Below are positions 10,001 to 59,467 of a stretch of DNA of 64,000 nt, one piece after another. The first letter of the stretch is position 1; each line of letters begins with the position of its first letter. Source of the DNA: Leuctra nigra (Eukaryota; Arthropoda; Insecta; Plecoptera; Leuctridae); the NCBI GenBank assembly GCA_934045905.1, contig OW203768.1, forward strand, positions 12,242,316 to 12,306,315. The letters run 5' to 3'. Below the pieces are notes generated by a model. It ran no database searches, was not told where the DNA came from, and saw nothing but the letters and a program-made list of their open reading frames with translations. A program made the position numbers and the translations under genes.

Positions 10001-13000
10001 TTGTTTAGAAGTTTTACATTTAAAAGTAAAAATAGTACTATCTTCAAAAAAAAGGGTTTCGAAAAGGTCTGTTTTTGTATTTTATAGTTTAAAAAGTCCA
10101 GAATAGGCGAATGGTCAAGAAAAAAGCCAACAATTTCTTACAGTGACACCCTGCTTTGGTGTGGGGCCTTATTCGGTTGCCAATTCACACAATTTAAATA
10201 CCAAAAGCCACTTTCCAAATCTTGAAGTTAGATTCGAATATGTAAGTTGTACTGTCTAGAAATCCTTTAGCTGCTGAGAAAACAATGCTATTTCCCTTCA
10301 TGATGTGTATCTATAAGATGTTGTTGCGAGATGAATGGGATCGCGTGGAAGTAGCGTCACAGCAGGAAGGAGCATGGGAAAGATGCTGTGCAGAGAGTCG
10401 AGATGAGCCACGACATCCCAGCTGATCACTGACCTCCTCGTAGTAAACATTGCCAGTGTCTCGGAATGACAGCTCACAAATCATCTGTCATCATCACACA
10501 TAATCTAAACATTGGCAGATCTTTCAACACTTCTAGAGACGAAAAGGAAGATTTGCCATAATGTCAACAATAACCTTGACTAAACGGCGACGTTCGTAAA
10601 ACGTGGAATTCGACGAACCCGATGATTATGTTTCTAACCTTCAGCAATATTTAAATGACACTGTAAAATTTTATATGTACCACTATGCTTGAGAAGTTAG
10701 TTCCTGAGGAAGATTCCAATATGAAATCGGAACGGCGCATATTATCCGATGAGATGGTTTTGTCTACGCTCGACGCTGGAGGGCCGCGCTGGGTTATCCC
10801 CCATGTATCCCCATCATTCTGTATCCCCACGGAGCTCCCCTCCTGCCCCGTGTTGATAGTCAATCATCGCTACTGCTGCGGGCGACACGAGATCAGCCAC
10901 CTCCAACACCAACGCTGGACCAGATTCTAAAATTTTACCATCTTCGAACGTTATACAAAGCTTTACCAACACCCCAACCAATAATAATCTCATAGAAGCA
11001 ATTGCGTCTAAAGCTTGTCTTCCATGAACGCGAATTCGCGACGCGATTCAGGACCTCATTGGCTGAGATGGCCAACATGGCGTTGCGTATTCGCGTGTGA
11101 TGGAAATGATTTTAAGTAGAATGTGAGCCTCGAGGCCGCAAAGGGTGAGGAAATAGTCGGGAAATATCTTCAATCAGATTGGCAGATTAGATAGAGGAGA
11201 TTTCATTTAAATACGGCTGCGTACTAAATGGGTTATTGGAGATGGTATTTCCTAAGTATCGCTATAACTTTTAAACCATTCAATAAAAGTGTAAAATAAT
11301 TAGCAAACTAATTTGTTGTGCTAACTCGTAGATAATCTGACAAAACTAGAGAAATTTCAGATTTTCCACGAGTTTGGGCACAAATATTGAATTTATGAGA
11401 TGGCGTTTGTATTGCTAAGGTCGACTACAAAAAATATTTTTAAAAATATTCGCAAATTGAATGGATAACAAAAGTTATGTCGATATTTAGAAATATTATC
11501 GCCTAAGATCCGACGCGGCCACAGGAGGTCAATCCTAAATTTCCTTGTCGTATCGTTTCACTCGATACGGTCTCACTGCTATGGTCGGTGACAGGCAAAG
11601 ATGAACCCTGTTTAGCATTGCCAGGTATAGGCCGGCCCATGCTAGCGCGGGTTCATCTTTGCCTGTCACCGACCTTATCTATCGGCGCCACGCGGGAGAT
11701 GAGTCACGTGAGAAGTGGCACAATGTCGACCGCACGGCTGTCACCGAGTGACGAGGTGTCACGCTTTGTCACGCATCTCGCCGCAGCCTCCGCGCTGGGG
11801 TTACCTCGCTGGACCGCTGCCAAGCGATCGCATTCGATACACAATCAATCATCAACCAAGCACGATCACAAGCAAAAGGGATCCGCACAATACAATGACT
11901 AACTTTTTGCCATTTTGATTTGTATTTGATTAAATATTCCCAGGATCGACTTGTATTTTTCAAAACTGATACCTTCATATCACGTTATTTTTTTCACAGT
12001 TCTGGAACTCGGCTAATGGCGCCGGAAAAAAACAATTATGCAGATGGTGATTATAAGATGATGAACGGTGTGAATTGAAAGTAGTCTTGGCTGCTTTGGA
12101 AAAGTCATAGCATTTAACTCTCGGTTGAGGGAAGTCACAAAATTTCTTTCAGGAACGATGGCGCCGTGAATCGAAGCCGGGTATCCGGAATGCAATTCAG
12201 AGCGTTATCCAACTTGCTCATATCTAGTTCATGACGTGTGAAAATGTCCATTACAAAACCATCATTCTGAGACTTTTCATCCTAGATCTGGAGTTGCCAC
12301 TATAATCCCACAATAACAGCATCCAAGTATCAATAAACTACTAACAGGGATTAGCATCAACGTGATGCGCTGTGGAATAAGAAGTGTTCGTGTACCTAAG
12401 CTCCTGTGCCGGGTCCTGGCGTGGACGTCGCACTGACAGCCGCGACACTTGCCGCCGGGGTGCTTGATGACGTCGTCGAACTGCAGGATCCACCAGGCGT
12501 CGACGTCGAACAAGATCGGGTCCACGTCGCTCACGGGCATGTTGATGCGGTCACCACCCTCTCGACCTTGCCGTGTCTAGCACACGCTCACGTCACCGCC
12601 CTCTTGACGCGCACCACACGTCCAGCGTCGCGCTCGGTTCACTTCACCACCCTCTTGACGGGCACAACACGTCCAGCGTCGCGCTCGATAACCTTCACCA
12701 CCCTCTCGACGGGCACCACACGTCCGTCACGCTCGATAACCTTCACCACCCTCTTGACGGGCACCCCACGTTCGCAGTCGACACTAGGCGAGCACTACGA
12801 GCTCTGCCCCACGGACAAGGTACACTAACAGACCCATGGTAGGCTCGCACAGTTTTCACAAATTAATAGAAATCACTGTCCCTTCAATAATTCTGAAGCT
12901 GTTCACAAGTTTCAAGCAGGCAGAAGAAAGGTGTTCATACGCTGATGTCTATTTGCGTTAAGCACCCTCTTACTGGGTTCGCCGTTAGAGTCACCTCCTT

Positions 13001-16000
13001 CACCTCCGTTACTTCTCAATACACATGCAACGTTCTTTGTGCCGACTGATTTCCAAATGCTGTGGAAATTACCACACCGTTACAATTAACATCAAGACTA
13101 TCCCTTTCAGATCCAGACAGATTTTAAAATACACTTGCTTATTAGTTACATAAGCTTATACAGTCCATTCAATGCATCAATTGACACAGTCACTGAACGG
13201 TACTTTACGTCATCAAAGAAAAGTACAGCAGAAACTCTACATGACCAAAATATACATTTCCATTTGGTATCTGAAAGGGATATCTTATGCTCAGATAGTT
13301 ATCGATGACTTGAACTTGACTGGCACGAACGCCGAGTGATTTATGCCGATGATAAAGATATAAACCCCAAATAATGAACCGCGGGAAATTTAATTACTAC
13401 TTTGTTAATTACGATTAAGAGTGATTTAGTGATATGATCTGCTGATAACGGGTCGGTAAGCTGCTTGATTAGCTAAGTTTGAACTTGAAGATGTTTGTGA
13501 ACCGATGATCGGGGATTAGGCGTGGTAATCTGAATCGCGTAATAAGTCAGATATCAACACAGATTATCAAGGTGATAATCTCTCAAATAAACCTGCAGAA
13601 ACATTCAAAAGTGAACTTACATAACAAATTGTATTTTTGAAAATTTTGCAGGACGATAATAAAAGGAATTAATGTAAAGTTGTGGTACTCGGTAATAATG
13701 AAAAAATGAAATCTAGAGTAGGACTAGGTATTGCATTTAGATCCTCGGAAAAATCGCTCCCCAACATCGTGTATAATTATTCATACTGGACTTATGCAAT
13801 AATGTGTGTCTTTCATATCAAAAAAAATACATGTATCACAAATTTTCACCTGTTACATGCCAGGTAAAAAATTATTTTACCAATTTAAACGGTAAAATAA
13901 TTTTTAAAATTCATTTAAAATAAGAATATTACAAAAATGATATTAAAAACAAGCTACGCGATTTAAAGTTTAAAAAAATGACACGAAATCTCGAGAAAAC
14001 TGTATTAAAAATAAGCGTTTTTTTTTTAAATGCCACGAATATCAGTATAAAACTGCTGTAACTTCCTATGTGACGGAGAGGTAATGCCATATCATCTCCT
14101 TCACGCCACGGCCGCAGCAATGTAGCGCCTCTACATGGTGTTGCCCCGCTAGAGGTCGCTACGACACCTGGGAGGGTCGTCCTGCCAATGCCACCGTGGC
14201 GGAGTGACGCATGCGCAGTGTCAAGGAGACACCGCATTCCGCGCAGCGCCGATCATGTCATTAGCACCCTTGCGGTCGTCGCGCGATAAGGGTCTATTCC
14301 GAGCAACGTAGCATAGCAATCTCGACCTTAGTGGTGCATGGCAATAAGGTCGACGATACAATACAACTTCACCCTTATAGTCCAGTCAAATCAGGCTTAA
14401 AAATGTACAAACCCCAGAACAAATTGCAACATTTGGTTTTTTGGTGTCATTCTCTTCAGAAAATTGCCCTCTATAAACAATAGATCCAAAATCCGCGCAC
14501 CGGAAGTACTTTTTAATCACTTTTTAAGTTAATTTCCCATGTTAATTCCATCTTGCAAAAAACACTTTTTTCATGTAACTCCGATTTTGACGAAACTTGG
14601 CAGAATTGTTCACCATCCTAAATGAACAAAATAGCTCCCTGAGCGTTTTTCTCTAAACCTTATCGTTTGGGAAATATGGACCTCGCAAAACGTCAAATTA
14701 CACTCGAAGTGACCTAAATCGTCGAAAACTGACAAAAATATGACTTTTCGATTATTGTCTAATTTATAAATTTTTGGGAAATCGCCTCCTTGACCAAAAA
14801 AGATACCCCTGAGTTACAACTTCCCCCTTATGCCACGCACTAAGGGTGATTTCCTAGTGTTTCAGTATTATAAAGTCGACCTTATGTCAAATCACAATAA
14901 TGGTTTAAGAGTGACGTCGATAGGATATAATTCGTTTCTCATTCCATTGTCGAGATACACATTCGTAGCAGTTTTGCGAGTCGTAACTTATGTGATTAGG
15001 TTAAAATTCTGACCAGAAGTGAAAATTTGGATTTCCAAACATGTCGATTTAGTGTATTGAAATTACAAGAACGCTGGCTATTTTTATCGCACTGAATAGT
15101 TGTAGGCACTTTTTACGCATTTAGTACGCTCTTACTTTCCATAGAACGTCATTAAAAATGCTTCTTAGCATGAATGAATAAACATTCCACAAAAAGCATA
15201 ATATCGGAACAGAATTTGCAATACAAATGGAGGAATGATAATTCGCGGCAATTTCTATAACAATACAAATCGAAGAAAACACACCTGGAATACCTGCGTT
15301 ACGGTCACGTAATAATCGCTGGAAGAAATAACCTTATACCATCTCCGAGAAACGCCGACGCTCGAAGTACAATAAGTAATTCAGCTCATTGTTATGAACG
15401 AGGATTTCTGACGCATGGATTTCTACAAATACACGCGTTCAGTTCGAGATGATGAAGAAAGCTGTTCACATTTCTCATCTAATCCACATGTGCGGCGAGC
15501 GAGAATTTTAAACCGGAGAAGAACTTTTAAATTAGGAATAAGAGGCAAAATGAACGGTGGCAAAACTGCATGTAACTAATTTAAATAATTGGAACACGTA
15601 TACTGGCATGCAAATTTAATGCAAAATTGGTATCAAATAGCTGGTTACTTAATTAAAATAATAATAACTACCTATTGCATGGCTCCATAGGTCTGGGTTT
15701 CAAATGCTCTGTTAAATTAGTTGATGATTAATTTGATCGGGATTATTACCATGGCAACAACAATAATTACTACTTTAACATTCAATTAATCAATATTACA
15801 TTCATGGCAGGACGATCTATACATTTTATTGAAAAAAGTGTTTCACCCCTTAAAACAGGAACCCTCAGTATTATACGATGAATTTTTTCGCCAACGTGAA
15901 ATGTTTGCCAGAACATTCTAAATATTTAGAAAAATAACGCAATGAAATGGACGTCGCCGATTGGTGGAGAAGAGTCACGTGGTATACAAGCAGAGGAAAT

Positions 16001-19000
16001 CAAAACACCAGCAGCCGAGGGCAATATTTAAATCATAATTTAGTCATCAACTTTCAGACGTCAAGAAATGTTACGTGCTATTTTTATAGCTAACACACGA
16101 CCACCGACCAAGTATATGAAGTTTTAGTTATTAACTATTACATTTTAATTAATATTACCTACAAACGCTGTGACAACCGTTTTGCAACTTTTCACCATGC
16201 AATAAATATTGAATAGCGATTATAATCACTGCTGTGCATTTAATAAATCTCGTTATCAACTATACAGAAAACCATTAGAATCATATTAACTAACTTCTCC
16301 AAAGGATACTATTTGCATATGAGAGGAATGGAATCCACACAAAAGGGTCCATATTTTTGGAATATATTATGTGTTTTAACAGCTTCTCAGTTTAAAAATT
16401 AAAAATTTGAAGTCCTGTCAACTCGATTGGTGGAGTGGAAAAGTTAGCTTCCCAAGAAATGAAGTTACTTCCCAAGGAATGGAGCCTTTTTCTGTCGATT
16501 CTATTCCACTTTGCTCGTGGTACAGACCTCCATTCAACATTTTTTTAACGAGCATGTATCGAAAACTTATCGTCATTTCCCAAATTACGTAAAAAGGCCG
16601 ATAAGGAAAATAAGCTCGATATGATATTTAAACAAAAGCCCGGCGATAGAGTAATATAACCCACTGAATTATCAGCTAGAAACACGCTACAGTGATAGTA
16701 ACGTGTGTGGCCGTGCGCCATTAACGACCTATTGTCTCACATTCACTATCACAATGATAAGAAGACTGGAAGCAGCGCAAGCCAGTTGTCGTCGGTTCCA
16801 ACTCCGAAGGTATGCGATGGCGTCGACTAGATAGTGATCTCATTGGTGGGATTAACAGTGCATACAGAATGCTGTTTGACACCGCTTTGTGTGGCCAAGA
16901 CGAGAAGATATGAGCACTTTTGTTGGAATGGAGGTCGAAATTATACAATGAACACTACCACTCTTCTCTCGGACAGATATGTTATTATTTTGAAGGGACT
17001 GGGTTCCAAGTTTTTAAAAATATCGGTTCCGATTCCGGTTCCAGTTCCATGAAATTCAGACAATAATTATTTTTTTAAATCGACTTTTGGGAACTTACAT
17101 TCTCAGCAATGTAACAATCATTCATTGACTCGGTGATCATTTATTTGAAAAACCATAAATGGAAGTAAATAATTTCAGATTTGCAAGGCAATGAAGTTAA
17201 AATTCAATGAAAAACCCTTATGGAACCCAAATAATATTTAATATTAAAATGGTTCCGGTTCGGTTTCCACCTAAAAAATAAATAAGAGTTCCGATTCCGG
17301 TTTCTATAAAAATATCTCGGTACCGGTTCAAGTCCGTTTTGAACATATAATACTTGGTAAAACGACCTACCGACACGCAAATTGCCCAAACATTTCATAT
17401 GATTTCATCTATTCACGCCAAAAGTCGATTTTATCACCGAAGTTTGTGCAGGAAGTAGAAGTTTTCCAATCAGCAATAATTTCGCCGAGCAAATCGAGTT
17501 GAGCCAACTAATTTCAAGTCACATAATTTCAGTTCATAACCACATTCGGATTGAAAATCACGCGCACATTATACAGTTGGATCTGTGTTGCGGATCTGCG
17601 TGCCATTAGAGGACATGTCGGCAGAAGGCGTGTGCGATAAACTGCCAGGTAGATATTCCGACAGTAATCGAGCGCAAGAGGTTCGCAGGCGGAACAGAAG
17701 TATTATAGAGCCACGTAAACCCTGCTCTTATCAGATTTCTCCTACACAACTACATGGTGCAGTCCAGTTTCTAGTGATTTCAGTCATTACATGCAACGCA
17801 GAGCGCTTTAAAACTTGGTTCATATCAGACATTATGCTCGTCTTAATTTTACTAGGTATACAATTTTGTTAAAATGCCGTATAATTCCATGGTATAATTA
17901 CTAATTGGGTGGGATGGTTCGATCTGTGGGATCTCTCCAAATGTTCCATTTTTATAAAAGATGATCCATTCACTGGTCTCTTTTCTGGAACTTTTAAATT
18001 ACCTTTCTTGCTTTCTTTTTGCATTCACACTTCGAAAAAATATCTAGACATATTATTTCACTGTTCGAAACGTTAAAAAATTAAACAAATTAATATTCAC
18101 AACAGACTTATTTTCAAAACTGATGATCCACTACATTGGCTGTTTTTGAGTATACAAATCTTCCAAATCGTTCCAAAATTTGAATTTGAATTTTCGAATG
18201 TTCTTTTTTGAAACGTTCCAAAATTAAAATGTGTTCAGGTCCGCCACCGTTGATTTTGAATAGTACTTCATAGTGCATAGGTTTGCCAAGCAACCACGTT
18301 TCCCACATTATTCATCTGAATCCGATTCCGCCAGCGATTCTAGTGCACAGCAAGCGAGGGAGCAGAGCGCAATTTCTCCGGCAAGTCACATGATTTGCAC
18401 GCTGCATTGAACTAGCTCTGCAGCCACTTAGCGATTTCACGGCGCCTTACGCAAGTAATTCCCTCTTCAACACAACAAAACCGAGAGGGAAACTAATCGA
18501 GCGGCGCAGTACGTTGAAAGTGATTCGAAGATTCGCGCTTCAAATTCAATTCCTTTAGACGTCGACAATGATACATAGAAATATAATTCTTATTACAGCG
18601 TGTCACTTTTCATGATCATCATTTTACCGCGTCAATGTCACCTACATGTATGGCATACGTCAATGTGTCAATGTCATCATACGATTACCTACACCCTCTA
18701 CAAGGAAAATTAGCAAGTTGCAATCAGCAGTTTTTCCGACGAATTTAGATTTTTGTAAGTATGTAGGTTAGTATAGTTGACGGAATTACGTAGTGAAGTG
18801 ACTAAACTGCAGATAAGCTTCATTATGTTACATTGATTGTAGGTGCATTGTTTTGATTTTTCTCGTATAACTATCAATATTAGTCGCAGTGTATGTTAAT
18901 ACCGCGCTTTTTCCAAAAATGGACAAAGGAAATTTTAAAACAATGAACAATTGATAGTCGGTTTGGTTCGGGGCACAAAGGTTAGAAACGACATGGTTAT

Positions 19001-22000
19001 ATATTTAAAAAAAAGTATGAGTGAGCATATATTTAAACTTACGAAATAAATTAATTTCAAGGGTACCTTAGAGATAATCACAAGATGGTAAATATTTAGA
19101 TCCTTCAAGTTCATCAATTATTTCCTCTATTTGTATATGCAAAGTATAATAAATAATACCTCTTTCACGAAGCTATTCAAATATGCTCAATTGCGGATCC
19201 TGGCGACTCTATCAATTATCCCCAGTGACAAAACAACAACACTACCTCCAGGTAACGCGTGAAACTCTGAATTTGCATCTCATCTGGCCAGTCGTGTGAG
19301 ATTGCACGCTGGGACACGCGAGAAGTGTCGGCTCACTCTTGCATATTAGCGGAACAACAGGCGAGATTATCTACCATGTTGTGGGTAAACAACGCAGACA
19401 AATGCCACGGCAATCTGTTCGCCGCGATTTACCTGAAACGTTTAGTCAGTGTCGTGACTTGGTGGCTATTTCTATCAATTTTACTTTAGACTTTCGTAAC
19501 TTGTTTCGTGCCACCGTGGGAGCTAATGATTTCAATGTAAGTGTAATTCGACGCGTATGTTTTCTTCTTTTAGAATATTACGAAAATACGAACGTCTCGA
19601 CTAATACATGTCACGATCCATGCATATTAAATCGATAATTTAAATATACAAAAATGACGAAGAATGTAATTTCTGTTACTTTTCAAGTTCCTAACATCAG
19701 TTCCACAACTATTAGAATAAAATTTCCGATCATCACCGTTCATTATTTGGGGTTTTGGTAATTCAAAATAGGTTAAATAAACTTATTAAATTCTCTGGGC
19801 CAAGAAGAACATACATTCACAAAGAGGTAAATTTCTTGGGAATTTAAATACGGGTTCCACACATTTTAAGATATGACAAGTCCAATTTGAAGCAAAAGCT
19901 CAACCATTCAGATTTCAGATTCACTTCAGAGCGAACTTTTGACACCTAGAAAACGTATTAAAATACCCCAAAAATATTCATTTTATGTATATTACATTCC
20001 CTTTCTCTAGTGATACAGTAAAATCAACACAGCGTTTCATTTCGTATTTGCAAACAAGATTATTAATGATCTATCACACCTAAACAAACAAACAACACTA
20101 TTATTTACTCCTCCGAAAGATTACACGAACAAAGTCTTCCACGCACAGTGCGTATATCTTAAAACACCTGGACACAATCTCGCGCCGAAGACACTGTATC
20201 GATCAATCAATCACTGTCTTCCCGATCACGCACGGCACACCTCAGACACCGACACACACACGTGTACTCTCGGCGAGCGCTCGCGCAATACTGACTCGTA
20301 CTTGCGATTACTTCCAGTCAGCTGGCTCCCCTCCCCCGCCGCCCGCGCGAGCACGTGGTACAACCCTTGCGCCTTAATGCACGGGGGACATTGCTGCACA
20401 CGAGGGTGATGGGGGATGGTGATAGGGACGTAATCGATTGGTGGCCAAATGAGATACATTAAGTACGAAAGATTTTGACTGAATTTATGCATCAAAAATA
20501 CGCTTGTAACAATAATACATATTTTGAGGATAAAATGTGCAAAATATTTTGGGATTAATTAAATATATTTTACGATTACGAATAAGATACGATTGATGAA
20601 CATGTCACAAATGATACATTATGGTTGACATATTCCCAAGATAACATAACCGAAATACATGAAAACACTTTTAGCCGATTTCTAGATCATCAAGCATACG
20701 GAGGTAGAATTATCCTCCTAAAATTACGAATTTATGTGTATCTCCTTAAAAAATTAGCAAATTCAATAAAAAAACAATACAATTCATATGATGCTTTATG
20801 TTTGACTTCATAAAAAAATCTGAATCCTTTTTTCCACCATACGTTAATGTCTTAAACTTAACCCCCCCCCCCCCTCCCCCATTGTTGTTTCACTGAATAA
20901 AGGTCCTCTCTAATCAAAATAGCACTACTACACGTCGAACACTTGACTCTAAAACAGCTTGCATCATATCAAACAAGACTGAAAAAGCAGTGACAGAAAC
21001 CGAAGCCATTGCTCCACATCTCCATGTCCTGCACGTGACCCTGTAACGTGAGATGATATCGATCTCACGGCGCTATCGTCTCACCCACTTCTGTCGTCTT
21101 ATCGCACGAGATGTCAAACAAGTATGTGCCCTCGCCATACCAGGAAGCCAGATACAATCACTATATACTTCAACACGATTAGATAATGCTGACAATAACA
21201 TAGGATAATACGGGATTTAGGCAATCATGTCGAAATAGATGGTTCTTGAATAATCCTTTATAATTTAAATAAAAATCTGGAATTGAAAAATTTTTAATTC
21301 GAAAAAAACGCCCTGCGGGGCAACAATTGGAAGGTTATTTGATCCAGTTTGTTAATTTTAGAGTCCCAAAATCACCTTTAAATTGTTGAAATTTTGAAAA
21401 AAATGCGAAGCAAAAACGGGGGGCTTCGTAAAATATCAAAATAAACTAGTAATTCAAATTTTTCTTTTCGGTGTACTATTATATTTGATTGCCTCTACTG
21501 CGGCTCCCATAATTATCAAATTTATTAATTATTGGGGAATTGGCTCTTTCACCAAAAAAGGTTGCCGACCGCTCTGGTTTAGGCAATTCGGCCTGTGAGT
21601 GATTATGACGATGTGGAGGGTGGGAAGGAGGTCGTGGACTATACCTCGAGAGAAGGGGAATAGAATCTACATAAATGGGCTCCATTTCTGGAAGTTTTAA
21701 CAACTAGGTGTCAAAAAACCTTCAATCTTCAATCTTCAACGATCGAGGGTTTGTTTCTAATTGAGAAATATAGAAATGTCGTTGTGTGAAGAATTGGTGG
21801 GAACCTTCACAGCGATTGCCGCGCGACTGAGGAAAACTACGAACAATTTCATTCAGTTGTGCAGTTTAAAGTTGTATCTTAGTTGCACTCTACTGTGACT
21901 GTGCTCTATTTAGCCGGCACTGTAATAGTCTGAGAATAATAGAAATTATCTGAGAATAATAGAAATTATCTTAGAAATAATAATTTGAGAATGAGACATT

Positions 22001-25000
22001 TGGTCTGAATCCCAGGTTCTAAGTGGATAACAGCTATGTCGACTTGAATGTGTAGAACAGTAATAAATAATGACTTGTAAAACTTGATCAAGTACTTGAG
22101 GTTAATCATGCAGTTACATAGATTAGGATCTCATTGGATATAGGACCTGTAATTTAGATGTTCCCCAGTCAAAACTCAAGTAGTTGATAAGCTTTATCCA
22201 TAATGTACCACGAGAAAAGGGGTAGGAGAACATTTACACAAGTCGATTTTTGCCTTCAAGTTTTGCCTAGTAAATATGTGCATTTCCTCCTCCTCCTCCT
22301 CTATTACAGTACAGGAGATGATGTGTTTATAGTATTTCGCTCTTCGGCGTTGAAGACTAAAACAGAAATATAAAAATAACGAAAACGTTCCACTTTCTGT
22401 ATCACTTTGACTTTGTAACAGGGCTGTAGAGAGAGAGGTGAAAACAAGTCGAGGATTTTGTGAACGAGCACTCACTTTGACGGTATGCAATACGTATTTG
22501 TATCCAGATGGGGCTGATTGACTAGCGTTCGACCGTTTTAGAAAATTCAGAGAGAAAAATTATAAGTGAGTGTAACTTTTACAGGATGTTCACATGATCA
22601 GTCTGATTGTGTATTAGTAGCACTTTTAAATTTTTGCTTATTGCATCGTTATTAGGCGCCGGTTATTCAACAAAATTTGCGATACGATTAGAGACCATAA
22701 CCCGTAAACCAATTGTTCTCAAATTTTAATCATGATTAGATGAAAGACAAACTTAGGGTTATCCCTTGGCACATTTTTGAAATTTAATTTTATACGGCGC
22801 CCAGGGAGACATGCAAATAGCTAATTTTTCAACAAAACTCCACTAATTATTACTAATTAACGAAACAAAAAATTAAAAATGTACCAAGGGATAACCCTAA
22901 TGTTGTCTTTTATCTAATCATGATTAAAATTTCAAATCATTTGGTCTACCCATTTCGTCTCCAATCGTATCGCAAAAAGTGTCTACAAAAAGCAGCAAAA
23001 TCGCTCTCGCTTGCAGCACCTTAAGCGTCAAGGCCATGCGCTAGGTGGCGCTCCATGCACGAGCATTGCGCGGTAAACAATGCGTATTGAGGCACTTTTG
23101 TCACGAACTCTCTTCAGTATGCTACCAACAGCTACGATTTGGCAAAACCACAACAAGAAAAAGGAAATATTCATGAAGAAACTAGCGCTCATAAATGTAC
23201 CGATTTGATTACAAAAATAATACAGGGTTTACGAAAGTTTCTAATGTTGGATTTACAAAAGTATTACTTACATTAGTATTATAAATATTACTTTTTGTGA
23301 ATGTGGTCCTTAAAACAAACGCATTCTCATAAAAGCAAAGACAAAGTGATAAAATATCTGAAATTTTCTTAAAGAAATTTAACAAGTTCCCAAATGTCTG
23401 TAAAATGTCAATTTATTCTGAAAATTGACGAAATCACCTAAAATGCTGTTCCCGATGAGCATGACAAATTTTAAGTTAATAGGTCTAGGTCGAACGGTTC
23501 CAGTTTAAATTTCAAAAATCACAGGATTCTGTTTAAAATCTATGTACACGAAATCGCTTACATTAGAATGTGTGTCAAATGTCAGATCTATTGGTTGAAC
23601 AGTTTGTATTATATTGTCTTTATTAGCTGCATTCAGCTTTTGTTACATACATAATACATAGGCAAATCAGTAATAAAGTTTGACCTGGGCACTGCTGGCA
23701 AGAAAAACAGAGAAAGTGTCATAAGGTGGTGACACTACAGTCGTTCAATAATGAAAACAATGCGCTAAATGTGTTGAACGTTGATGTTTACCGGCGAGGG
23801 ACGTGGAGGGGAAGTTCAACGCAATCCAAGACGTCCATGTCATTAGTCCCCCTGCCACTAGGTGGCGCTGTCACACGCCTACATCGCAGTAATTGCACAC
23901 GCAAGTGAACAATACCAGGCGAGAGCAAACATCTCTTCTTCTGATGTTTACCGGCGAGGGACGTGGAGGGGAAGTTCAACGCAATCCAAGACGTCCATGT
24001 CATTAGTCCCCCTGCCACTAGATGGCGCTGTCACACGCCTACATCGCAGTAATTGCACACGTAAGTGAACAATACCAGGCGAGAGCAAACATCTCTTCTT
24101 CTGATGTTTACCGGCGAGGGACGTGGAGGTAGAAGTTCAACGCAATCCAAGACGTCCATGTCATTAGTCCCCCTGCCACTAGATGGCGCTGTCACACGCC
24201 TACATCGCAGTAATTGCACACGTAAGTGAACAATACCAGGCGAGAGCAAACATCTCTGCTTCTGATGTTTACCGGCTAGGGACGTGGAGGTAGAAATTCA
24301 ACGCAATCCAAGACGTCCATGTCATTAGTCCCCCTGCCACTAGGTGGCGCTGTCACACGCCTACATCGCAGTAATTGCACACGTAAGTGAACAATACCAG
24401 GCGAGAGCAAACATCTCTGCTTCTGATGTTTACCGGCTAGGGACGTGGAGGTAGAAGTTCAACGCAATCCAAGACGTCCATGTCATTAGTCCCCCTGCCA
24501 CTAGATGGCGCTGTCACACGCCTACATCGCAGTAATTGCACACGTAAGTGAACAATACCAGGCGAGAGCAAACATCTCTGCTTCTGATGTTTACAGGCGA
24601 GGGACGTGGAGGGGAAGTTCAACGCAATCCAAGACGTCCCTGTCATTAGTCCCCCTGCCACTAGATGGCGCTGTCACACGCCTACATCGCAGTAATTGCA
24701 CACGTAAGTGAACAATACCAGGCGAGAGCAAACATCTCTTCTTCTGATGTTTACCGGCGAGGGACGTGGAGGGGAAGTTCAACGCAATCCAAGACGTCCC
24801 TGTCATTAGTCCCCCTGCCACTAGATGGCGCTGTCACACGCCTACATCGCAGTAATTGCACACGTAAGTGAACAATACCAGGCGAGAGCAAACATCTCTT
24901 CTTCTGATGTTTACCGGCGAGGGACGTGGAGGTAGAAGTTCAACACAATCCAAGACGTCCATGTCATTAGTCCCCCTGCCACTAGGTGGCGCTGTCACAC

Positions 25001-28000
25001 GCCTACATCGCAGTAATTGCACACGTAAGTGAACAATACCAGGCGAGAGCAAACATCTCTTCTTCTGATGTTTACCGGCGAGGGACGTGGAGGTAGAAGT
25101 TCAACGCAATCCAAGACGTCCATGTCATTAGTCCCCCTGCCACTAGGTGGCGCTGTCACACGCCTACATCGCAGTAATTGCACACGTAAGTGAACAATAC
25201 CAGGCGAGAGCAAACATCTCTGCTTCTGATGTTTACCGGCGAGGGACGTGGAGGTAGAAGTTCAACGCCATCCAAGACGTCCATGTCATTAGTCCCCCTG
25301 CCACTAGATGGCGCTGTCACACGCCTACATCGCAGTAATTGCACACGTAAGTGAACAATACCAGGCGAGAGCAAACATCTCTGCTTCTGATGTTTACCGG
25401 CGAGGGACGTGGAGGTAGAAGTTCAACGCCATCCAAGACGTCCATGTCATTAGTCCCCCTGCCACTAGATGGCGCTGTCACACGCCTACATCGCAGTAAT
25501 TGCACACGTAAGTGAACAATACCAGGCGAGAGCAAACATCTCTGCTTCTGATGTTTACCGGCTAGGGACGTGGAGGTAGAAGTTCAACGCAATCCAAGAC
25601 GTCCATGTCATTAGTCCCCCTGCCACTAGATGGCGCTGTCACACGCCTACATCGCAGTAATTGCACACGTAAGTGAACAATACCAGGCGAGAGCAAACAT
25701 CTCTGCTTCTGATGTTTACCGGCTAGGGACGTGGAGGTAGAAGTTCAACGCAATCCAAGACGTCCATGTCATTAGTCCCCCTGCCACTAGATGGCGCTGT
25801 CACACGCCTACATCGCAGTAATTGCACACGTAAGTGAACAATACCAGGCGAGAGCAAACATCTCTGCTTCTGATGTTTACCGGCTAGGGACGTGGAGGTA
25901 GAAGTTCAACGCAATCCAAGACGTCCATGTCATTAGTCCCCCTGCCACTAGATGGCGCTGTCACACGCCTACATCGCAGTAATTGCACACGTAAGTGAAC
26001 AATACCAGGCGAGAGCAAACATCTCTGCTTCTGATGTTTACCGGCTAGGGACGTGGAGGGGAAGTTCAACGCAATCCAAGACGTCCATGTCATTAGTCCC
26101 CCTGCCACTAGGTGGCGCTGTCACACGCCTACATCGCAGTAATTGCACACGTAAGTGAACAATACCAGGCGAGAGCAAACATCTCTGCTTCTGATGTTTA
26201 CCGGCGAGGGACGTGGAGGTAGAAGTTCAACACAATCCAAGACGTCCATGTCATTAGTCCCCCTGCCACTAGGTGGCGCTGTCACACGCCTACATCGCAG
26301 TAATTGCACACGTAAGTGAACAATACCAGGCGAGAGCAAACATCTCTGCTTCTGATGTTTACCGGCGAGGGACGTGGAGGTAGAAGTTCAACGCAATCCA
26401 AGACGTCCATGTCATTAGTCCCCCTGCCACTAGGTGGCGCTGTCACACGCCTACATCGCAGTAATTGCACACGTAAGTGAACAATACCAGGCGAGAGCAA
26501 ACATCTCTTCTTCTGATGTTTACCGGCGAGGGACGTGGAGTTAGAAGTTCAACGCAATCCAAGACGTCCATGTCATTAGTCCCCCTGCCACTAGGTGGCG
26601 CTGTCACACGCCTACATCGCAGTAATTGCACACGTAAGTGAACAATACCAGGCGAGAGCAAACATCTCTTCTTCTGATGTTTACCGGCGAGGGACGTGGA
26701 GTTAGAAGTTCAACGCAATCCAAGACGTCCATGTCATTAGTCCCCCTGCCACTAGGTGGCGCTGTCACACGCCTACATCGCAGTAATTGCACACGTAAGT
26801 GAACAATACCAGGCGAGAGCAAACATCTCTGCTTCTGATGTTTACCGGCGAGGGACGAGGAGGGGAGGTTCAACGCAATCCAAGACGTCCATGTCATTAG
26901 TCCCCCTGCCACTAGGTGGCGCTGTCACACGCCTACGTCGCAGTAATTGCACACGTAAGTGAACAATACCAGGCGAGAGCAAACATCTCTGCTTCTGATG
27001 TTTACCGGCGAGGGACGTGGAGGGGAAGTTCAACGCCATCCAAGACGTCCATGTCATTAGTCCCCCTGCCACTAGGTGGCGCTGTCACACGCCTACATCG
27101 CAGTAATTGCACACGTAAGTGAACAATACCAGGCGAGAGCAAACATCTCTTCTTCTGATGTTTACCGGCGAGGGACGTGGAGGTAGAAGTTCAACGCAAT
27201 CCAAGACGTCCATGTCATTAGTCCCCCTGCCACTAGATGGCGCTGTCACACGCCTACATCGCAGTAATTGCACACGTAAGTGAACAATACCAGGCGAGAG
27301 CAAACATCTCTGCTTCTGATGTTTACCGGCGAGGGACGTGGAGGTAAGTTCAACGCAATCCAAGACGTCCATGTCATTAGTCCCCCTGCCACTAGATGGC
27401 GCTGTCACACGCCTACATCGCAGTAATTGCACACGTAAGTGAACAATACCAGGCGAGAGCAAACATCTCTGCTTCTGATGTTTACCGGCGAGGGACGTGG
27501 AGGTAGAAGTTCAACGCAATCCAAGACGTCCATGTCATTAGTCCCCCTGCCACTAGGTGGCGCTGTCACACGCCTACATCGCAGTAATTGCACACGTAAG
27601 TGAACAATACCAGGCGAGAGCAAACATCTCTGCTTCTGATGTTTACCGGCGAGGGACGTGGAGGTAGAAGTTCAACGCAATCCAAGACGTCCATGTCATT
27701 AGTCCCCCTGCCACTAGGTGGCGCTGTCACACGCCTACATCGCAGTAATTGCACACGTAAGTGAACAATACCAGGCGAGAGCAAACATCTCTGCTTCTGA
27801 TGTTTACCGGCGAGGGACGTGGAGGGGAAGTTCAACGCAATCCAAGACGTCCATGTCATTAGTCCCCCTGCCACTAGGTGGCGCTGTCACACGCCTACAT
27901 CGCAGTAATTGCACACGTAAGTGAACAATACCAGGCGAGAGCAAACATCTCTGCTTCTGATGTTTACCGGCGAGGGACGTGGAGGTAGAAGTTCAACGCA

Positions 28001-31000
28001 ATCCAAGACGTCCATGTCATTAGTCCCCCTGCCACTAGGTGGCGCTGTCACACGCCTACGTCGCAGTAATTGCACACGTAAGTGAACAATACCAGGCGAG
28101 AGCAAACATCTCTGCTTCTGATGTTTACCGGCGAGGGACGTGGAGGTAGAAGTTCAACGCAATCCAAGACGTCCATGTCATTAGTCCCCCTGCCACTAGG
28201 TGGCGCTGTCACACGCCTACATCGCAGTAATTGCACACGTAAGTGAACAATACCAGGCGAGAGCAAACATCTCTGCTTCTGATGTTTACCGGCGAGGGAC
28301 GTGGAGGTAGAAGTTCAACGCAATCCAAGACGTCCATGTCATTAGTCCCCCTGCCACTAGGTGGCGCTGTCACACGCCTACATCGCAGTAATTGCACACG
28401 TAAGTGAACAATACCAGGCGAGAGCAAACATCTCTGCTTCTGATGTTTACCGGCGAGGGACGTGGAGGTAGAAGTTCAACGCAATCCAAGACGTCCATGT
28501 CATTAGTCCCCCTGCCACTAGGTGGCGCTGTCACACGCCTACATCGCAGTAATTGCACACGTAAGTGAACAATACCAGGCGAGAGCAAACATCTCTGCTT
28601 CTGATGTTTACCGGCGAGGGACGTGGAGGTAGAAGTTCAACGCAATCCAAGACGTCCATGTCATTAGTCCCCCTGCCACTAGGTGGCGCTGTCACACGCC
28701 TACATCGCAGTAATTGCACACGTAAGTGAACAATACCAGGCGAGAGCAAACATCTCTGCTTCTGATGTTTACCGGCGAGGGACGTGGAGGTAGAAGTTCA
28801 ACGCAATCCAAGACGTCCATGTCATTAGTCCCCCTGCCACTAGGTGGCGCTGTCACACGCCTACATCGCAGTAATTGCACACGTAAGTGAACAATACCAG
28901 GCGAGAGCAAACATCTCTGTGTCTTGCGTCACGCTATCTACCCGCTGATTATTCAGCGGTGACCTAGTAGTTGCCGTGCGAGCACACACAGATCTGTCTA
29001 ATGAGGCGATGCGAGGGGTGAACAAGTTAAAAAAATCAGTGTACCAACACTTTGATAAGAAATTAAAATAAAAAAATCTGAAGGAAAATATCAAGTAGTA
29101 TAGAAAAAAACTACAAAAAACTACAAATAAAAAAAATAAAATAAAAAAATAAAAATGTGTGTTGTTAACCCTTGAGGTGATGCTATGGGACGTAGCATTC
29201 ATAGCATTCATACGGCGTTAGGGGTGGGAATGTACACAACTTTCGCCCTTATTGAGTGCAACATTGAACCATACCATACACATTCTTCAAAAAAAATATC
29301 GTGCTGTTTTATTTTTTGAAAAAATAATCGCATTATTTACGAATGATTGACATTTCCTTATTTATAATTTTCTGGCTTTTCCTGTTAGGTATATAATCAT
29401 CCTGCTTCTTTCCAAGAATTACCAGTTCAAAGACTTGATACATTGCCATTGGTATTACAGAGATGACATTGTCTTACCCCATATTTTACTATGTCAACAA
29501 TTTAGGACGTACAACTAAAAAATATGTAACGACAATATATTGTAAAAAAAACTTATTTATCCCCCATTTTGTTCAGCACGGAACAATTGAGTCATTCCAC
29601 CACCAAACAGACGCATATCTGACAAAGTGTTATTCATTAATCAAACAATGAGACGACCAAAATAAGTGCTTAAATACGTCACACTACGCCTGTTATCAGA
29701 TTGTGTATCACACAAACACACTGGAGACAGCACTCTCCTTGTGCTAAATCCCTAAATGTATCCTAGCACTCCATCACCCTGCCCCATGAACATTGTCTAA
29801 TTGATCACGATTCGCATTTCATTCGCCTGCACTGCCGAGCCTATGTCGGGCTTTTGTTTCACCCAGTCGGCTAGTTATGCGATATTGTTGTCCAATAAAC
29901 ATAGCCAACGTATCATTATGCCGTATTACAACCGGAGTGACCTTACCTTTCATGTCGAAAACCGTGGACGAAAGTAAAAACTCGCTATTGTATTTGATAA
30001 ATGTCAGGCGGTGAATGCAAATATTAATACGTTATTCAAATTCCCATAATGTAACCTTTAAATTGCAATAAGAGTTAAATGGAAGAAAAAATATTCATGA
30101 AAACAAAGCGTATAGGTAGTGAAAAGAAGATGAAGTTGTCTGTCGGTCTACAAGTGAAGGGGAATAGAATCTAAATAAAGGGGCTCCATTTCTTGAAGTA
30201 CTATGCCTTGTGACAGCTAGTAAGTTGTCAAAACTCAAAAATAACCAAATGGACGAGCTTTTCGCTTGTATTTTACAACTTATAATCTTGTATTTTGCCA
30301 GGTAAGAAAGTGAGTCTTTTACGAAGATTCTTTTATGCTTCGATAATAGCAATAGCTGCCAAGGTACATCTTAAATTTATATAAAACATTTGCGTGGTAT
30401 ATCCAAGGAGGTAACTTATAAAATCTTCTTGGATATACAACCGAATAAACAATAAGATTTATTAGTACAAATCGAACTATGTAATTAAATGTTGCACATA
30501 AATTAAGGAAAACACCTACAATTCTGGACCTTGATACCACGCAAGGACAGCCTTGAAAATTAAACCATCCACAAATATTGTAATCATGAAGAAATGCTGA
30601 AAAAGTAATATATTGCGCGTCCAACAATCCATATAATGATGGGGCAGTGCACTCTGATATATTTTTGTTTTACTTTAAAATGTGGGGTTGAGATTAATTT
30701 TTGTGAATATTTGGAAATGTGTGGTATTTTTATTATTTTATGTGTCTACTTTTTAATTTCAGAGTGTAATTTTTAATCCTCTTATTTCTATTTTACCTTT
30801 CTTATTGAAAAACAGGGTGTAATTTTTCAATGTGATTATAAAATCGTTTTTTTTATTATGTTTTTGGTTGCACACCAATTTGAATTGTTCACCCATTGGC
30901 CCATAAATTAAGTTCAGTAGTTCACCCACAAGACATCTATATTTGGAATGTCAAGCCAAGCATCCCACTGAAAGGTGACATTACGGGAGGAGTTCCGTGC

Positions 31001-34000
31001 CATTAGTTCCCCATCCGAGATGACCTTCGCATGCATCGCATCTCAAACAATACGCCAAGTAATTACTATTATTAGTCATGACTGGAGGTAATGTGTGCAC
31101 GCCCACTTCCAATCAATTACATTGAATTAACTGCATCTCGGATAGACAAGGGGCCAAGGATGCCGACGCAAAAGGCGCGGATCCATTGTCGAGACGGCTA
31201 TTGTAAGCCGGCTGAGGAACGATTGGAGATTGATCTTTCAGTTTGAGGATGGGTGCTAATTATCTATAATTATTTAATTCCTAAAATGTCTTTCTTTGTG
31301 GCATGTCAAATATGGTAGGATAATTCTGCTGTCATATTTGCGATGATTGAGTAGTGGCCAAAAGTGTTTCCATCTCATTCTCTATGCATCAATCAATACA
31401 TAAGATGGATTAATCTCATCCGTAAAATATATTTTGTCACCGTATTTCGCATATTTTATCAGTCAATTAATTTTAATGAGATCTATGAATGTTTTAAAAA
31501 TTTAATTGAAATATTGGGCAGATATTCTAGAACTTTCGCATTTCACAGCCTTCGTGGTGCAAAATTTTCAGACTTGACAGTAAATTTTGCCACTAATCTC
31601 TGTAGGAACATGATGATAGATGAGCTTGGCAATGCCCTATTGTGGTGGCTGCTTTTATAAATGCCGGCTAATGAACGGCTTGCTGATCGATCTTGATGTT
31701 TAAGGATGGTCGGCAATCAACTGTAATCATCTATTTCCTATAATGTATGGTATTAAGAAGCCACACCGACTGCTCTAAGACGGGCAAAGTGCAATCATGT
31801 AGGTTGTGAAGATTCCATAGTCGCACTACGCTCACATCGACGTTGTTGCATGCAATTTATATTTATATGATAATGGCTTCAGTAGAAATCCTTGAATTGA
31901 AAGAAAAGTACAAAACTGAATTTGATAACTCAATTAGTTGGCACTTAGCAGATTCATAAACACAGACGTCATACTTCGATGAAAATTACAAATCATACTA
32001 GACAAAAGAGCCACTAGGAATCGAGTAATTTCTACTTAATGGATCTGTTGTTTTGGTTAGAACTTCGCTTTCAGCACTTTTTTATTTTGCAAATTCTAAA
32101 ATAAGTTTAAGACTATAATTTGATACTTCGACTGCATCATTTTCGAGGCAAGATTGTTGAGAAGTGGACGATGGCAATCCGTCATTTCAAGTTGTTTCAG
32201 CTTGGACACACTTTTTCAAGTTGAATCCATCAACAGAAGTTCAACTTTCAGAAATCTTTTGTTTTTCAAATGTAAATTACTTTATGATTCCTTTATGTAG
32301 TGACGCAATTCCACATGTGAACATTTACAATATACGTGATACAGGTAGGTAGATACCCTGGTTTAAACTCTGGCAGTTGTCTCTCAGGGTTGTAATAATG
32401 AATCTGGACTCACCATGATGGTCGCCCGCACCGTTGAGTGCCGACGGCAGAAGTTCCCCGTTCTCTCGCAGCTCGTCGAACTTGGCTAGCAGCACCGGTA
32501 GCCTGCGGACATAACAGTGCCGAACATTTAGACACAGCAACACAGAATTTACGAGGAGCAGAAATCTAAAATCAATCCCATCTTTAACTAAGTTCTGATC
32601 TCTCTACATTCCTGTATAAGTTGTTTCAGACATCACAAAAATAATGTTCAAAATCTTATGTAGCACTCTAACATAAAATCTTCACCACCTACAAGCGCTA
32701 TACCTACAAATAATATTGTACACTCCTGGACACTGAAATTGGTCCGCAGTCAATGTTCAAGTGACACTACGGCTAGTATTTAACATTTATTTTAATGTAT
32801 ACCGGAAGGCCTTTGTGAGTTTAGGGTAAAAAATTACTTTAAATAAATAATAAATACTAGCCTAGGAGTCTTGTGAATATTGACTGCGGACCATTTTCCG
32901 TGTCCAGGAGTGTACCTAAGTAACTAGTTAATATAACGGTTGAACCCATTTCATATCAAGTTTAGTTAGTTGGAGAATTCAACAGAAGTATTGCACAGCC
33001 AGCCACTTAAAATTTGTGAAGCCCCAATATCATCTTCACTAAAAAACAAAACAATACGACTCCAATATTCAACTAGTCAAGATCCAATTGCGTAGAATGT
33101 GTTTGTGTGGCCGAACAGCGAGATGAACAATGAGTCTAGTTACTGGTAGTGGTATCTTGCGAGTCGCAGCAGCCTGGTATCCATGCCGACCTCTCAGCGC
33201 CCTGTCTCGGCCGATACTGAGCTGGGTCTGGGCGTACTGAGACAAGAGTGTCACCCGCTCGATGGACCGAGACACAAGCCTCACACCCAACTAACTGCTC
33301 ACTTAGATCCATCAGACAAGTCAAGATCGATGACACGAGGGCAATGGTAAGTAATACGGTGATTAGGCCGCTAACCCGTAATAGTTTGACTGTCAAAATT
33401 AATTTTGTGAAAGTTGAAGGTATCGTTAATTGTATCAATGACACCAGACATTATCCGGTTGCCAAATAATATTTAAATAATAAAATAGTTGTCCAATGTC
33501 CACAGGTGTGTAGGAACTAAATTTGCAAGGGAGGGGGGGGGGGGGGGGGGATAATACTGACAAGAACTTGAACTGGAGATACTAGTGTCCACGAAGACAA
33601 TGGGAAATTTTTTGAATTCAGGCCTAAATTTGGTGCATTTCTCTGCGATTTTAACACTTTTTAAGCATATTTTTATCTTGACATATAAATGTATTAGAAC
33701 ATATAAGCGAGTTGATTGAATCAGAGGGGGGGGGGGGATTATACCCCTATTTCCTCCCCCAAGAATCAATTTTTATGAATATTTCCGTTCTCACAGTTTG
33801 GAAAAAATCAGTTAACTTGGAAAAAGAGCTCACGAGGAATGATCATGATTCATGATAAAATGGCTGGGGACTGACATAATAATTAATTTTAAATAAACTA
33901 AAAATTAATATGTACCTGGAACTAGAAAAAAAACTACCTATGCATTTTCTTCCAACAATCAAGTTGGTGGTTGGGTTGATATATTTTCATTTTCCACCCT

Positions 34001-37000: not shown

Positions 37001-40000
37001 CCCAACCAACTCGAGAGTAGGCCGTCAGAGAGAAACACCGCGTGACACTCACTTTGACTGTGGGACGTTGTTCTTGCGCTGGAGGTCTGCGCGCAGCCGC
37101 TCGCCCACCATCTTGTACAGCTCCACCAGCGTGTTGAACGCGGCGTCGCGCACGTTCGGCATCGGGTCGCTCAGCAGCTTCACGATGGCCGGGACGAGCC
37201 GAGACACGGCGATGCTGTTTGAGCCGTAGCTGGACAACAAGGAAACACTTCGTTAGTTGATATAAAAACAATGTCTTCTATTTCGGACTACAGGAAGCTA
37301 TATTACCATGTTGTTCAAATTAAGGTGCCTAACACCAAAATCTGACAGTTTGCTAATGATAAAATGTAATTTAGGAAGACTTACGAAAGACTTATTTTAT
37401 AACTAACAACAGTAATTGACTCAGACATCACATCCTATAAAATAAAGTGTCGAGGAGTAAGAAATATCAAAAGTAAAAACTTCCGTTCTCAGCATATCGG
37501 GGAGTTTGTCAGTAATAAAGTTGTTGGGCATCTCGGCCAGTACCGCTCTGCCTTGCGGCGGCACCGAGGCACTACCCGTTGCTCTGTCGGTCTCGGACCG
37601 GCCCCCGACGCAGACCTCGCGGTCGCGGGCTCGCTGGTCGGACCGACATTCAATTGCATGGACCATGTTTCATTCAAGAATACAAATTATCTTGTATTTA
37701 TAACAAATGTTTCACAAATAATATACCTACCAGAACATGAATATTGTACATTTCAAAGATAATGTCTACATAGAAAGTATCACATTGTTTATTGTCATGA
37801 GCAGACGTTGAGTTGTATGAACAATGAACATTGTTATAATGCAAAATTTAATACATTGTATGTCTACCTAGCCGAATCCAAGAAATAATATATGTCATAT
37901 TTTTAAGTGTTGCCTCTTACTACTAGCCAGTGGGCTATGAGGCATAGTTAGTAGAAAACACATTTTTTATTTTTATTTTTAACACTAAAGAATTTGAATT
38001 GATATTGAAAACTGAACTAGGTAGGTAGGTAGCTACTAGCTAGTAAGTAAACTGCTCATACAAATCCACAACCAACTCGAGTCTGATGCATTCTCTTGTG
38101 CACAGTGGCGAAGCGTACCTCCAAAAATTGGGGAGACACAAGACAAAAAAAAATAGAAAATAGCGTATTTTGGCTTACCTAAATTTTTGGTATATTAACT
38201 CAATTCGACGCACTTACGAGTTACGACTTATTTTACCATCTCTCTGGCTAATATCGAGATGAGGCGTAAGCCGCTTTGATTTTATTGAACACTTTTATTC
38301 GTATGAATGCAAAATATGAAATGCGGCAAAACTGTTTGTTAATAAATAAATAATCGATAACGTCATTGTCAACGTCAGTTTCCATTTTAGTGATAAATAA
38401 ATTATTAAATAATACACCGTACACAAACACAATACAAACGATTAACGAACTAAAATATCTGGAGGAAATAATACGTCTAATCAATGCAATTTCAATGTGT
38501 GAACTGACTTGTTTTCAAGTCTGACTCATTTTTCTAGATATTTTTAGTTTTACTGCTGACTAAGTGCGTTTATGCGAATGTCGTGTGTGTTGCACAACGG
38601 TGTAGGCGAGCGCTGCATTCAGCACTGCGGCGTGTACATTCCAGTCAATCTGTTCTTGTTGCTGTCAAGGGACATTATAATAACCAAGGAGACACGTCTA
38701 CCTCGGAGTCTATTTTGCAAGACTGTTATCGCATGGAATGTCCATACGCAGTATAGGCGGGCGGATGTTAGTGTGAGTGCGAGTGGGAGAAAACATATGA
38801 ATGCGTGAACAACGAGTGGAAGAAGGATGCAGATACTTCTGCGTTCGCCTGCGAGGACACAAGTAGCTTATGTCTCCCGGGTTATAAGATAGGAGATGCG
38901 CGCGCAGCAGCAGAACTCGCTCGCTCGTAAAGACACCAAATTGAGCATGGTTTTCAACTGACAATCAATGTGTTTCATTACAACACCAATTAATACATCG
39001 AATAAAAGTACGATACATAAAAATAAAATACAATTACAGCAAATTTTAAGGTATGAAAGATAAGAACAGCACTGTCCGCTTTTTCCAGGGGAGACACTGT
39101 CTCCCCTGTCTCCCCTGACGCTTCGCCCCTGTAGGTACATAAGAATATCTTTACATTGGCAAAAGTCCATTTCAATGATCTTTCCCAGAAAAAAAATACT
39201 AGTACGGCTGGCTGCCTTGATCAGCTAATCTCATTTGTAATGTTTTAAAAAAGCTATTTGTTTTATAATCAATAATCACTACCACTTTGTGAGCTCTCCT
39301 GCAAATCATTTTAATGAACTTCTGCCCTTCTACTATTAACCCCTCAAGCCGGTTCGACGTACTCCGTACGCGCTCTAAATTTCGTCCCTCAGGCGGTTCG
39401 ACGTGACATATACGTCCTGTGGAATATTATGTTCAAACAGTGCTAGTAGTGCCATCTCTCAGGACTTTGGTGAACTATTTGGAACTTATGATTTCTGGTG
39501 GTTTAGTGTTGACTGTTGGCAGCATTGAATATTTTTAGAATCTCTCATAGCCTTCTGAATTAAAATATAAGATAAATATGATTCTTCCGTCTGCAAAATG
39601 GCGTCTGAAGCGACTGTCAGGTGTTGACATAAATGCTTTTTTTAAGATTCTGATGAAGATGACGACCCATCGGGAAATGTTACTCGCAATGATAAATATG
39701 ATAGTGATTACAGTGATAGTGAGGAGAGTGACAGTGCATGAGAGAGTGACCAAAGTGATGATGGAAATGTTGAGAAATTGTGGAACCCACAGGAAAAGAA
39801 CTACCGCCTGACAGCTCGCGCGCCTAACATTTTAGTACCGGCTTGAGGGGTTAAGGAATGTACAGACAGATATGAAATCAATATTCTATGTCGATGAGAC
39901 ATAATAACGACATCTGATAACTTTCTCGAGGGAAACCCGCTTACTCTGAGAGTGTCTTGACGAGACAGTTCATCACCTCCTCGCGGATCTTGTGGTTCTT

Positions 40001-59236: not shown

Positions 59237-59308
59237 GGCCTGTTGGTCTAGGGGTATGATTCTCGCTTCGGGTGCGAGAGGTCCCGGGTTCAAATCCCGG
59301 ACAGGCCC
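59237..59308 (+). tRNA. tRNA-Pro (anticodon CGG)
   Basis: 72 nt folding as a full cloverleaf. The acceptor stem is GGCCTGT/ACAGGCC, the anticodon arm CTCGC-TTCGGGT-GCGAG has CGG in the loop, the T arm is CCCGG-GTTCAAAT-CCCGG, and the discriminator is C. The internal B box GGTTCAAATCC and a following T run (59310-59313) are typical of a pol III gene. No intron, and all stems are intact, so it is probably functional. Confidence 0.97.
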
Positions 59309-59467
59309 TTTTTTATTTTTTTAAAACATGATTCTTCACATCAAATTCGACTTGCTTTTTGTATTACTGCTAAAATATACTTGAAAACAACGACCTAACA
59401 ATATTTTTTTAATGACATGACGAGAGTTGTATTACTGGATTGTCTATTTCCGACGGAAACAGGATCT

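Follow-up and report, generated by a model that had tools for sequence, protein, structure and literature searches.

A short-unit tandem array of predicted CTCF sites within a CLASP intron of the stonefly Leuctra nigra

Introduction

Tandem arrays of CTCF sites lying inside transcribed genes are described for the mammalian X chromosome, with DXZ4, Firre and ICCE as the examples given in PMC6985041. The window analysed here comprises 64,000 nucleotides of the stonefly Leuctra nigra (assembly GCA_934045905.1, contig OW203768.1, positions 12,242,316 to 12,306,315 of the forward strand; positions given without a contig name are those of the window) and holds, within an intron of the CLASP gene, an array of a short unit that carries one predicted CTCF site per copy. 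The original prediction, made from the letters of the window, knew of no described intronic satellite built in this way, which was too strong a statement in view of the mammalian arrays in transcribed genes (PMC6985041). These share with the stonefly array the head-to-tail repeats, the CTCF site in each unit, here a predicted one, and the position inside a gene, and the duplicons of Firre are explicitly described as head to tail (PMC4391730). Their units, however, are 3 kb long in DXZ4 (PMC3218863) and 3.4 and 6.2 kb long in Firre (PMC4391730), whereas the stonefly unit of approximately 161 bp is far from the kilobase scale of a macrosatellite. DXZ4, Firre and ICCE are, moreover, mammalian and X-linked, whereas the stonefly array of predicted sites lies in an insect, in an intron of a protein-coding gene.

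The gypsy insulator of Drosophila, which is carried by a transposon, contains roughly twelve Su(Hw) sites in tandem and resembles the stonefly array in that sites for a single insulator protein of insects are closely packed; it differs in the protein concerned, in being transposon-borne and in being shorter. Gypsy serves as the reference insulator in PMC7880997. Many CTCF sites are also described in the Igh VH and protocadherin clusters, those of the Igh VH domains all in one orientation as in the stonefly array, but they are tied to gene segments or promoters, whereas the stonefly array is a simple short tandem repeat (PMC6746451, PMC7087399). The Cg_HINE elements of oyster come close in format, as most monomers measure 140-180 bp and the arrays are short and interspersed, with at most 29.3 monomers, but there are 7,151 of these arrays, grouped into 13 clusters with flanks in common (PMC7492417); the confinement of the stonefly unit to one locus sets it apart both from dispersed satellites and from the central repeats of these oyster elements. 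Among the matches listed in full-text literature searches no such insect array was described, which is a weak negative; as far as these searches reach, tandem CTCF arrays in genes are already known from mammals, and the 161-bp unit, the 32 copies and the insect intron are new.

Results

The tandem array and its CTCF-type site

The array and the sites at its two ends are as follows.
23782..28919, plus strand: tandem array of 32 head-to-tail units of approximately 161 bp (Tandem Repeats Finder, TRF, and unit alignment)
23855..23869, plus strand: CTCF-type site of the first unit (CCACTAGGTGGCGCT), followed by 31 more at intervals of 159-161 bp
28837..28851, plus strand: CTCF-type site of the last unit (consensus match)

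Analysis with TRF returned a period of 161, 32.0 copies and 98% matches for positions 23782-28919. The start lies 1 bp ahead of position 23783 as originally given, an offset that concerns the phase only and leaves the rest of the assignment in place. Alignment of the units identified 16 variable columns out of 161 and a mean pairwise identity of 98.1%, the 31 full units comprising 20 distinct sequences and the final, incomplete unit measuring 157 bp. The sequence CCACTAGRTGGCGCT is present on the plus strand in all 32 units, with a motif-to-motif spacing of 161 bp (23 intervals), 160 bp (seven intervals) or 159 bp (one interval), in full agreement with the predicted 32-copy intronic array with one site per 161-bp unit in a single orientation. 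The folding of single strands was unremarkable (z of -0.7 for the unit and -1.6 for the right flank).

CCACTAGRTGGCGCT fits CCASYAGRKGGCRSY, the first 14 letters of which are the human CTCF consensus from chromatin immunoprecipitation on chip (ChIP-chip) (PMC6746451), without mismatch in each of the 32 units, so that the fit at 15 of 15 positions claimed for the unit was confirmed. The only variable column of the motif is R, which is G in 20 units and A in 12. The vertebrate part of the matrix scan proposed in the original prediction was carried out using the human CTCF matrix (JASPAR MA0139.1, maximum 29.9 bits), and all 32 sites of this stonefly array scored either 24.1 or 25.5 bits. The probability of such a score in a random 161-bp unit is 1.3e-6 or 3e-7, and when the unit was dinucleotide-shuffled 3000 times the score was never reached, the best shuffle attaining 22.6 bits. 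As the units share one ancestor, the match counts as one coincidence rather than 32, and it is far above chance even if a thousand noticeable motifs are granted. The common orientation of the sites is what tandem duplication yields and is no separate sign of design. Outside the array, the best score in the window with the same matrix was 14.4 bits; three more consensus matches with 1-2 mismatches were present there, shuffled windows having a mean of 2.3 and a maximum of 5 matches with at most two mismatches. An upstream U-motif was sought beside the core, where the best windows matched at 6 of 9 positions and were unconvincing. Binding of CTCF to the array copies is probable.

Position within the CLASP gene

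The following features of the gene enclose the array.
3708..32413, minus strand: CLASP intron of 28,706 bp, which holds the array (splice sites)
32414..32502, minus strand: CLASP exon before the intron (LPVLLAKFDELRENGELLPSALNGAGDHH; splice sites and reading frame)
3673..3707, minus strand: 35-nt CLASP exon after the intron (in-frame join, read from sequence)
37052..37246, minus strand: CLASP TOG1 exon, 49% identical to the N-terminus of human CLASP1

The human CLASP1 query gave more TOG1 matches at 39947-40117 and 41000-41116. The exon at 32414-32502 joins in frame to that at 3673-3707 and then to 950-1025, as read from the sequence, and the splice sites corroborate the placement of the array in a 28.7-kb CLASP intron. 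The array begins 3,494 bp past the intron donor and ends 20,074 bp ahead of the next exon. With CLASP encoded on the minus strand, the plus-strand CTCF-type sites are antisense to the gene.

The CTCF gene and its two finger-4 exons

Human CTCF finger queries located a gene at C3:13610586-13614910 whose zinc fingers are collinear with those of human CTCF, with identities of 59% for fingers 1-3, 75% for finger 4, 68% for fingers 5-6, 46% for fingers 7-10 and 39% for fingers 10-11. Compared with the PDB, the joined fingers matched CTCF chains at 357 bits and the next protein at 223 bits, which together with the collinear fingers settles in the affirmative the question, raised with the original prediction, of whether the genome encodes CTCF. 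Among the best 120 of 6450 database matches of the joined fingers, the top protein, which is not named CTCF, shows 88% identity over 99% of the query, a protein of Diploptera punctata is 90% identical over 89% of the query, and a protein named transcriptional repressor CTCF is 81% identical over 73%.

Finger 4 belongs to the core-binding part of CTCF. The stonefly gene contains two adjacent 137-nt exons for it (C3:13611918-13612054 and C3:13612096-13612232), 41 nt apart and 72% identical in DNA, both of which are preceded by AG and followed by GTGAG and fit the phase of the adjoining exons as read from the sequence. The gap of 41 nt is taken to be too short for an intron, so the two exons are probably mutually exclusive; no paper title on a CTCF with mutually exclusive exons was found among the matches listed. 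One exon encodes the usual finger-4 helix SVEMSKLKRH and the other SVELSKMRNH, and the pair could give CTCF isoforms with different DNA recognition. Within the same 120 proteins, SVELSKMRNH was present in 2, the KLKRH form in 59 and, by the pattern used, neither in 59. The two carriers of SVELSKMRNH are from Diaphorina citri and Homalodisca vitripennis, both Hemiptera, and the alternative exon therefore looks old in insects.

The consensus across the genome

A search of the 536-Mb assembly with CCASYAGRKGGCRSY gave 393 matches (194 and 199 by strand), of which the array contributes 32 (8%), and a search with a reversed control pattern gave 11 (6 and 5), an enrichment of 33-fold when the array is left out. 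The exact 15-mer occurs 33 times, 32 of them in the array and one on contig C1 without evident likeness to the unit. Flanking sequences were compared for the first 40 of 100 listed consensus places, out of the 393, and 23 of these 40 sites had no flank likeness to any other of the 40, an indication that transposons do not account for all of the enrichment. Because the vertebrate-type consensus is enriched, although partly through repeats, the same site appears to be in use in stoneflies. Twelve of the 40 sampled sites belong to a repeat family that carries CCAGCAGATGGCAGC in a shared context (GCGAAACAA-site-ACA) and may be a transposon spreading CTCF-like sites. At two places the same site occurs twice, inverted and 494 bp apart, in what looks like another repeat family.

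Origin and flanks of the array

Searched with the unit by a procedure that skips very common words, the assembly gave 32 matches, all at the array locus, and a 23-base piece of the unit had no match in the viral contigs searched. Abundant satellite DNA takes the form of large or many arrays, whereas here a single locus of 5.1 kb was found, and a dispersed satellite was rejected on the grounds that the unit is at a single locus in the assembly. Adjacent units differ by 2.2 positions compared with 3.1 for units at large, a value as low being reached in none of 10000 shuffled orders, and the R alleles are clumped along the array (8 switches against a shuffled mean of 15, p = 0.007). Both observations fit the expectation from local block duplication, and the confinement of the unit to one locus looks like local duplication of a single-copy segment. 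From the likeness of neighbouring units we infer that a single-copy piece of the CLASP intron with one strong CTCF-type site was duplicated in tandem and that the duplicated segment then spread to 32 copies via unequal exchange or replication slippage.

The two flanks contain the following features.
23408..23725, plus strand: copy of a dispersed repeat in the left flank (genome search and fetched copies)
28942..28959, plus strand: palindrome in the right flank with 7-bp arms, CCGCTGA-TTAT-TCAGCGG, 23 bp past the array

The last part of the left-flank repeat (approximately 23677-23725) has 30 further matches genome-wide, and the repeat stops 56 bp short of the array. Approximately 70 bp at 23607-23677 are extra within this repeat and have GTTTG on both sides, as if a small insertion had duplicated 5 bp of its target. 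The palindrome was considered as a mark of a Helentron/HINE element and found insufficient.

Other features of the window and the assembly

Searches of the window with Rfam and ARAGORN identified two tRNA genes and nothing more, tRNA-Pro(CGG) at 59237-59308 and tRNA-Phe(GAA) at 59467-59541, both on the plus strand and upstream of the CLASP exons found. A Pfam search of ten open reading frames (ORFs) of the window gave no match above cut-off; the minus-strand ORF at 56913-57407, for which there were Pfam matches below cut-off, may encode a small, possibly EGF-like membrane protein and its product shares 39-45% identity with uncharacterised termite proteins. Self-reverse-complement stretches with 73-89% identity, probably foldback elements, are located at 44961-45355, 8169-8396, 22676-22976 and 5295-5392.

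Elsewhere in the assembly, a full-length open copy of mitochondrial COI was found at C13:51651552, on a contig that exceeds 51 Mb; upstream of the copy, nad2-like sequence is seen by eye. Its protein is 100% identical to that of Leuctra nigra, 99% to that of Leuctra fusca and 94-98% to those of other stoneflies, the top match by score (99%) being a UniRef cluster labelled Neoptera. Given the size of the contig, the frame is either a nuclear copy, from a large recent mitochondrial insertion, or the result of a misjoin; there are other COI matches in the assembly, one of them on C144.

Discussion

The reading proposed for the array, which the sequence leaves about evenly poised between being right and being wrong, is that a single-copy intron piece has been amplified to 32 copies, is bound by CTCF and acts as an enhancer blocker or local boundary. 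Stonefly CTCF would most likely occupy many of the copies, the dense one-way cluster would replace nucleosomes over approximately 5 kb, and the contact of the TOG1-encoding part of CLASP with the rest of the gene would be lowered through enhancer blocking or a local boundary. The last of these steps, a boundary or enhancer-blocking effect taken by itself, is put forward tentatively and is on the doubtful side. The footprint of CTCF is approximately 50 bp and a nucleosome covers 147 bp. A spacing of 161 bp leaves approximately 110 bp between footprints, too little for a nucleosome, so that canonical nucleosomes would be excluded if all sites were occupied; otherwise only every second site would be used. 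By these footprint sizes a full nucleosome together with a bound CTCF does not fit into 161 bp, which differs from the near-nucleosome spacing of the original prediction.

In the fly, CTCF fragments are reported to block enhancers in proportion to occupancy in 11 of 14 cases tested (PMC7880997). Several observations weigh against the proposed reading. The same report attributes to CTCF fewer than one tenth of fly boundaries, and these without clear direction (PMC7880997), so that the orientation-dependent action invoked in the original prediction is not to be taken for granted in an insect. For a boundary in mouse, the number and orientation of sites are described as counting for less than the character of the individual sites (PMC9279147). 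The 20 kb flanking the window at each end contained no other site of at least 15 bits, and no nearby CTCF partner is therefore seen. Variable columns make up 1 of 15 inside the motif and 15 of 146 outside it (Fisher p = 1.0). The genome-wide enrichment of the consensus is partly repeat-borne, as 17 of the 40 sampled sites fall into three repeat families (12, 3 and 2). A 40-bp satellite of 216 copies (C3:45181468-45190206) has 207 minus-strand sites of at least 16 bits, 11 sites of at least 20 bits and 11 consensus matches, and a 54-bp coding repeat (C3:14265338-14265609) has 4 consensus CTCF matches. The stonefly genome does give rise to tandem repeats that contain CTCF-like sites, and the expectation that unrelated satellites elsewhere would score lower stands only in part: these two repeats share the motif, and their best scores, 23.9 and 19.3 bits, are below the 24.1-25.5 bits of the present array. 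The 40-bp satellite lies beside integrase-like open frames, as judged by eye, and is a possible second CTCF-like tandem array; the host gene of the 54-bp repeat resembles, on inspection by eye, one for a peptidoglycan-recognition protein. As fly CTCF blocks enhancers but rarely makes boundaries, enhancer blocking is the best guess for the effect of the array, and a directional loop anchor is, by analogy with the fly, less supported in an insect.

That the array is instead a neutral minisatellite, in which intron DNA with a chance CTCF site was amplified and may be bound with no effect visible to selection, is quite possible, if somewhat short of an even prospect. The lack of excess conservation of the motif between units speaks for this explanation: the comparison of array units gave no sign of purifying selection on the motif, and from the sequence there is no evidence of selection for the array. 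Chance capture is also unsurprising in number, since the two other arrays of period at least 100 in the window extrapolate, as a rough estimate, to approximately 17,000 arrays and 2 Mb of unit sequence genome-wide, among which one or two arrays would capture a site by chance, again roughly, at the density of consensus matches outside the present array (361 in 536 Mb), and two more tandem repeats with such sites were present among the 100 places listed. Both arrays behind this estimate, however, have only about two copies, arrays of at least 30 copies must be far fewer, and a site of 24-25 bits has been retained in every unit.

An origin of the array as the central repeats of a rolling-circle element (Helentron/HINE) or of another transposon, which would have carried the CTCF site along, is very unlikely. 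The unit length does fit the 138-181 bp repeats of the oyster HINE elements (PMC7492417) and tandem repeats of approximately 140-180 bp are typical of the class; the palindrome just beyond the array, the end of the dispersed repeat just ahead of it and a 7-bp inverted repeat at the array edges (GATGTTT/AAACATC, seen by eye) point the same way. But the unit is at a single locus and the exact 15-mer is likewise present only once elsewhere, the inverted likeness of the two flanks was matched by 17 of 200 shuffles, TRF identified no left microsatellite, and in 3 of 3 fetched copies the left-flank repeat does not continue into the unit. Where such an element would place the same repeat and flanks at many loci, one locus was found, and of the set of subterminal inverted repeats, left microsatellite and right palindrome, the palindrome alone was found. 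With one locus and no paired flank structure, a tandem array of a miniature inverted-repeat transposable element (MITE) or of a Helentron was rejected. Even more improbable is that the motif serves, in place of CTCF, some other DNA-binding protein whose target is similar: zinc-finger genes form a large family in this genome, with 388 matches to CTCF fingers, but the motif match extends over all 15 bases of the consensus and all 19 of the matrix, and the CTCF of this genome retains the finger series.

A bolder version of the enhancer-blocking and boundary reading would see in the array an extreme homotypic cluster, whose 32 strong sites would strip approximately 5 kb of nucleosomes, form a one-way boundary that parts TOG1-containing from shorter CLASP products, be tuned by copy number between individuals and be switched on and off by the alternative finger-4 exons of CTCF; in this full form it is unlikely.

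Stoneflies belong to an insect lineage far from flies, in which CTCF might act directionally or with cohesin. The copy number of the array may well vary between individuals. With one short unit in one orientation and no second strong site within 20 kb of the window, a dose-response would be measurable at one locus, and the array would offer a clean natural test of how the number and spacing of CTCF sites set boundary strength.

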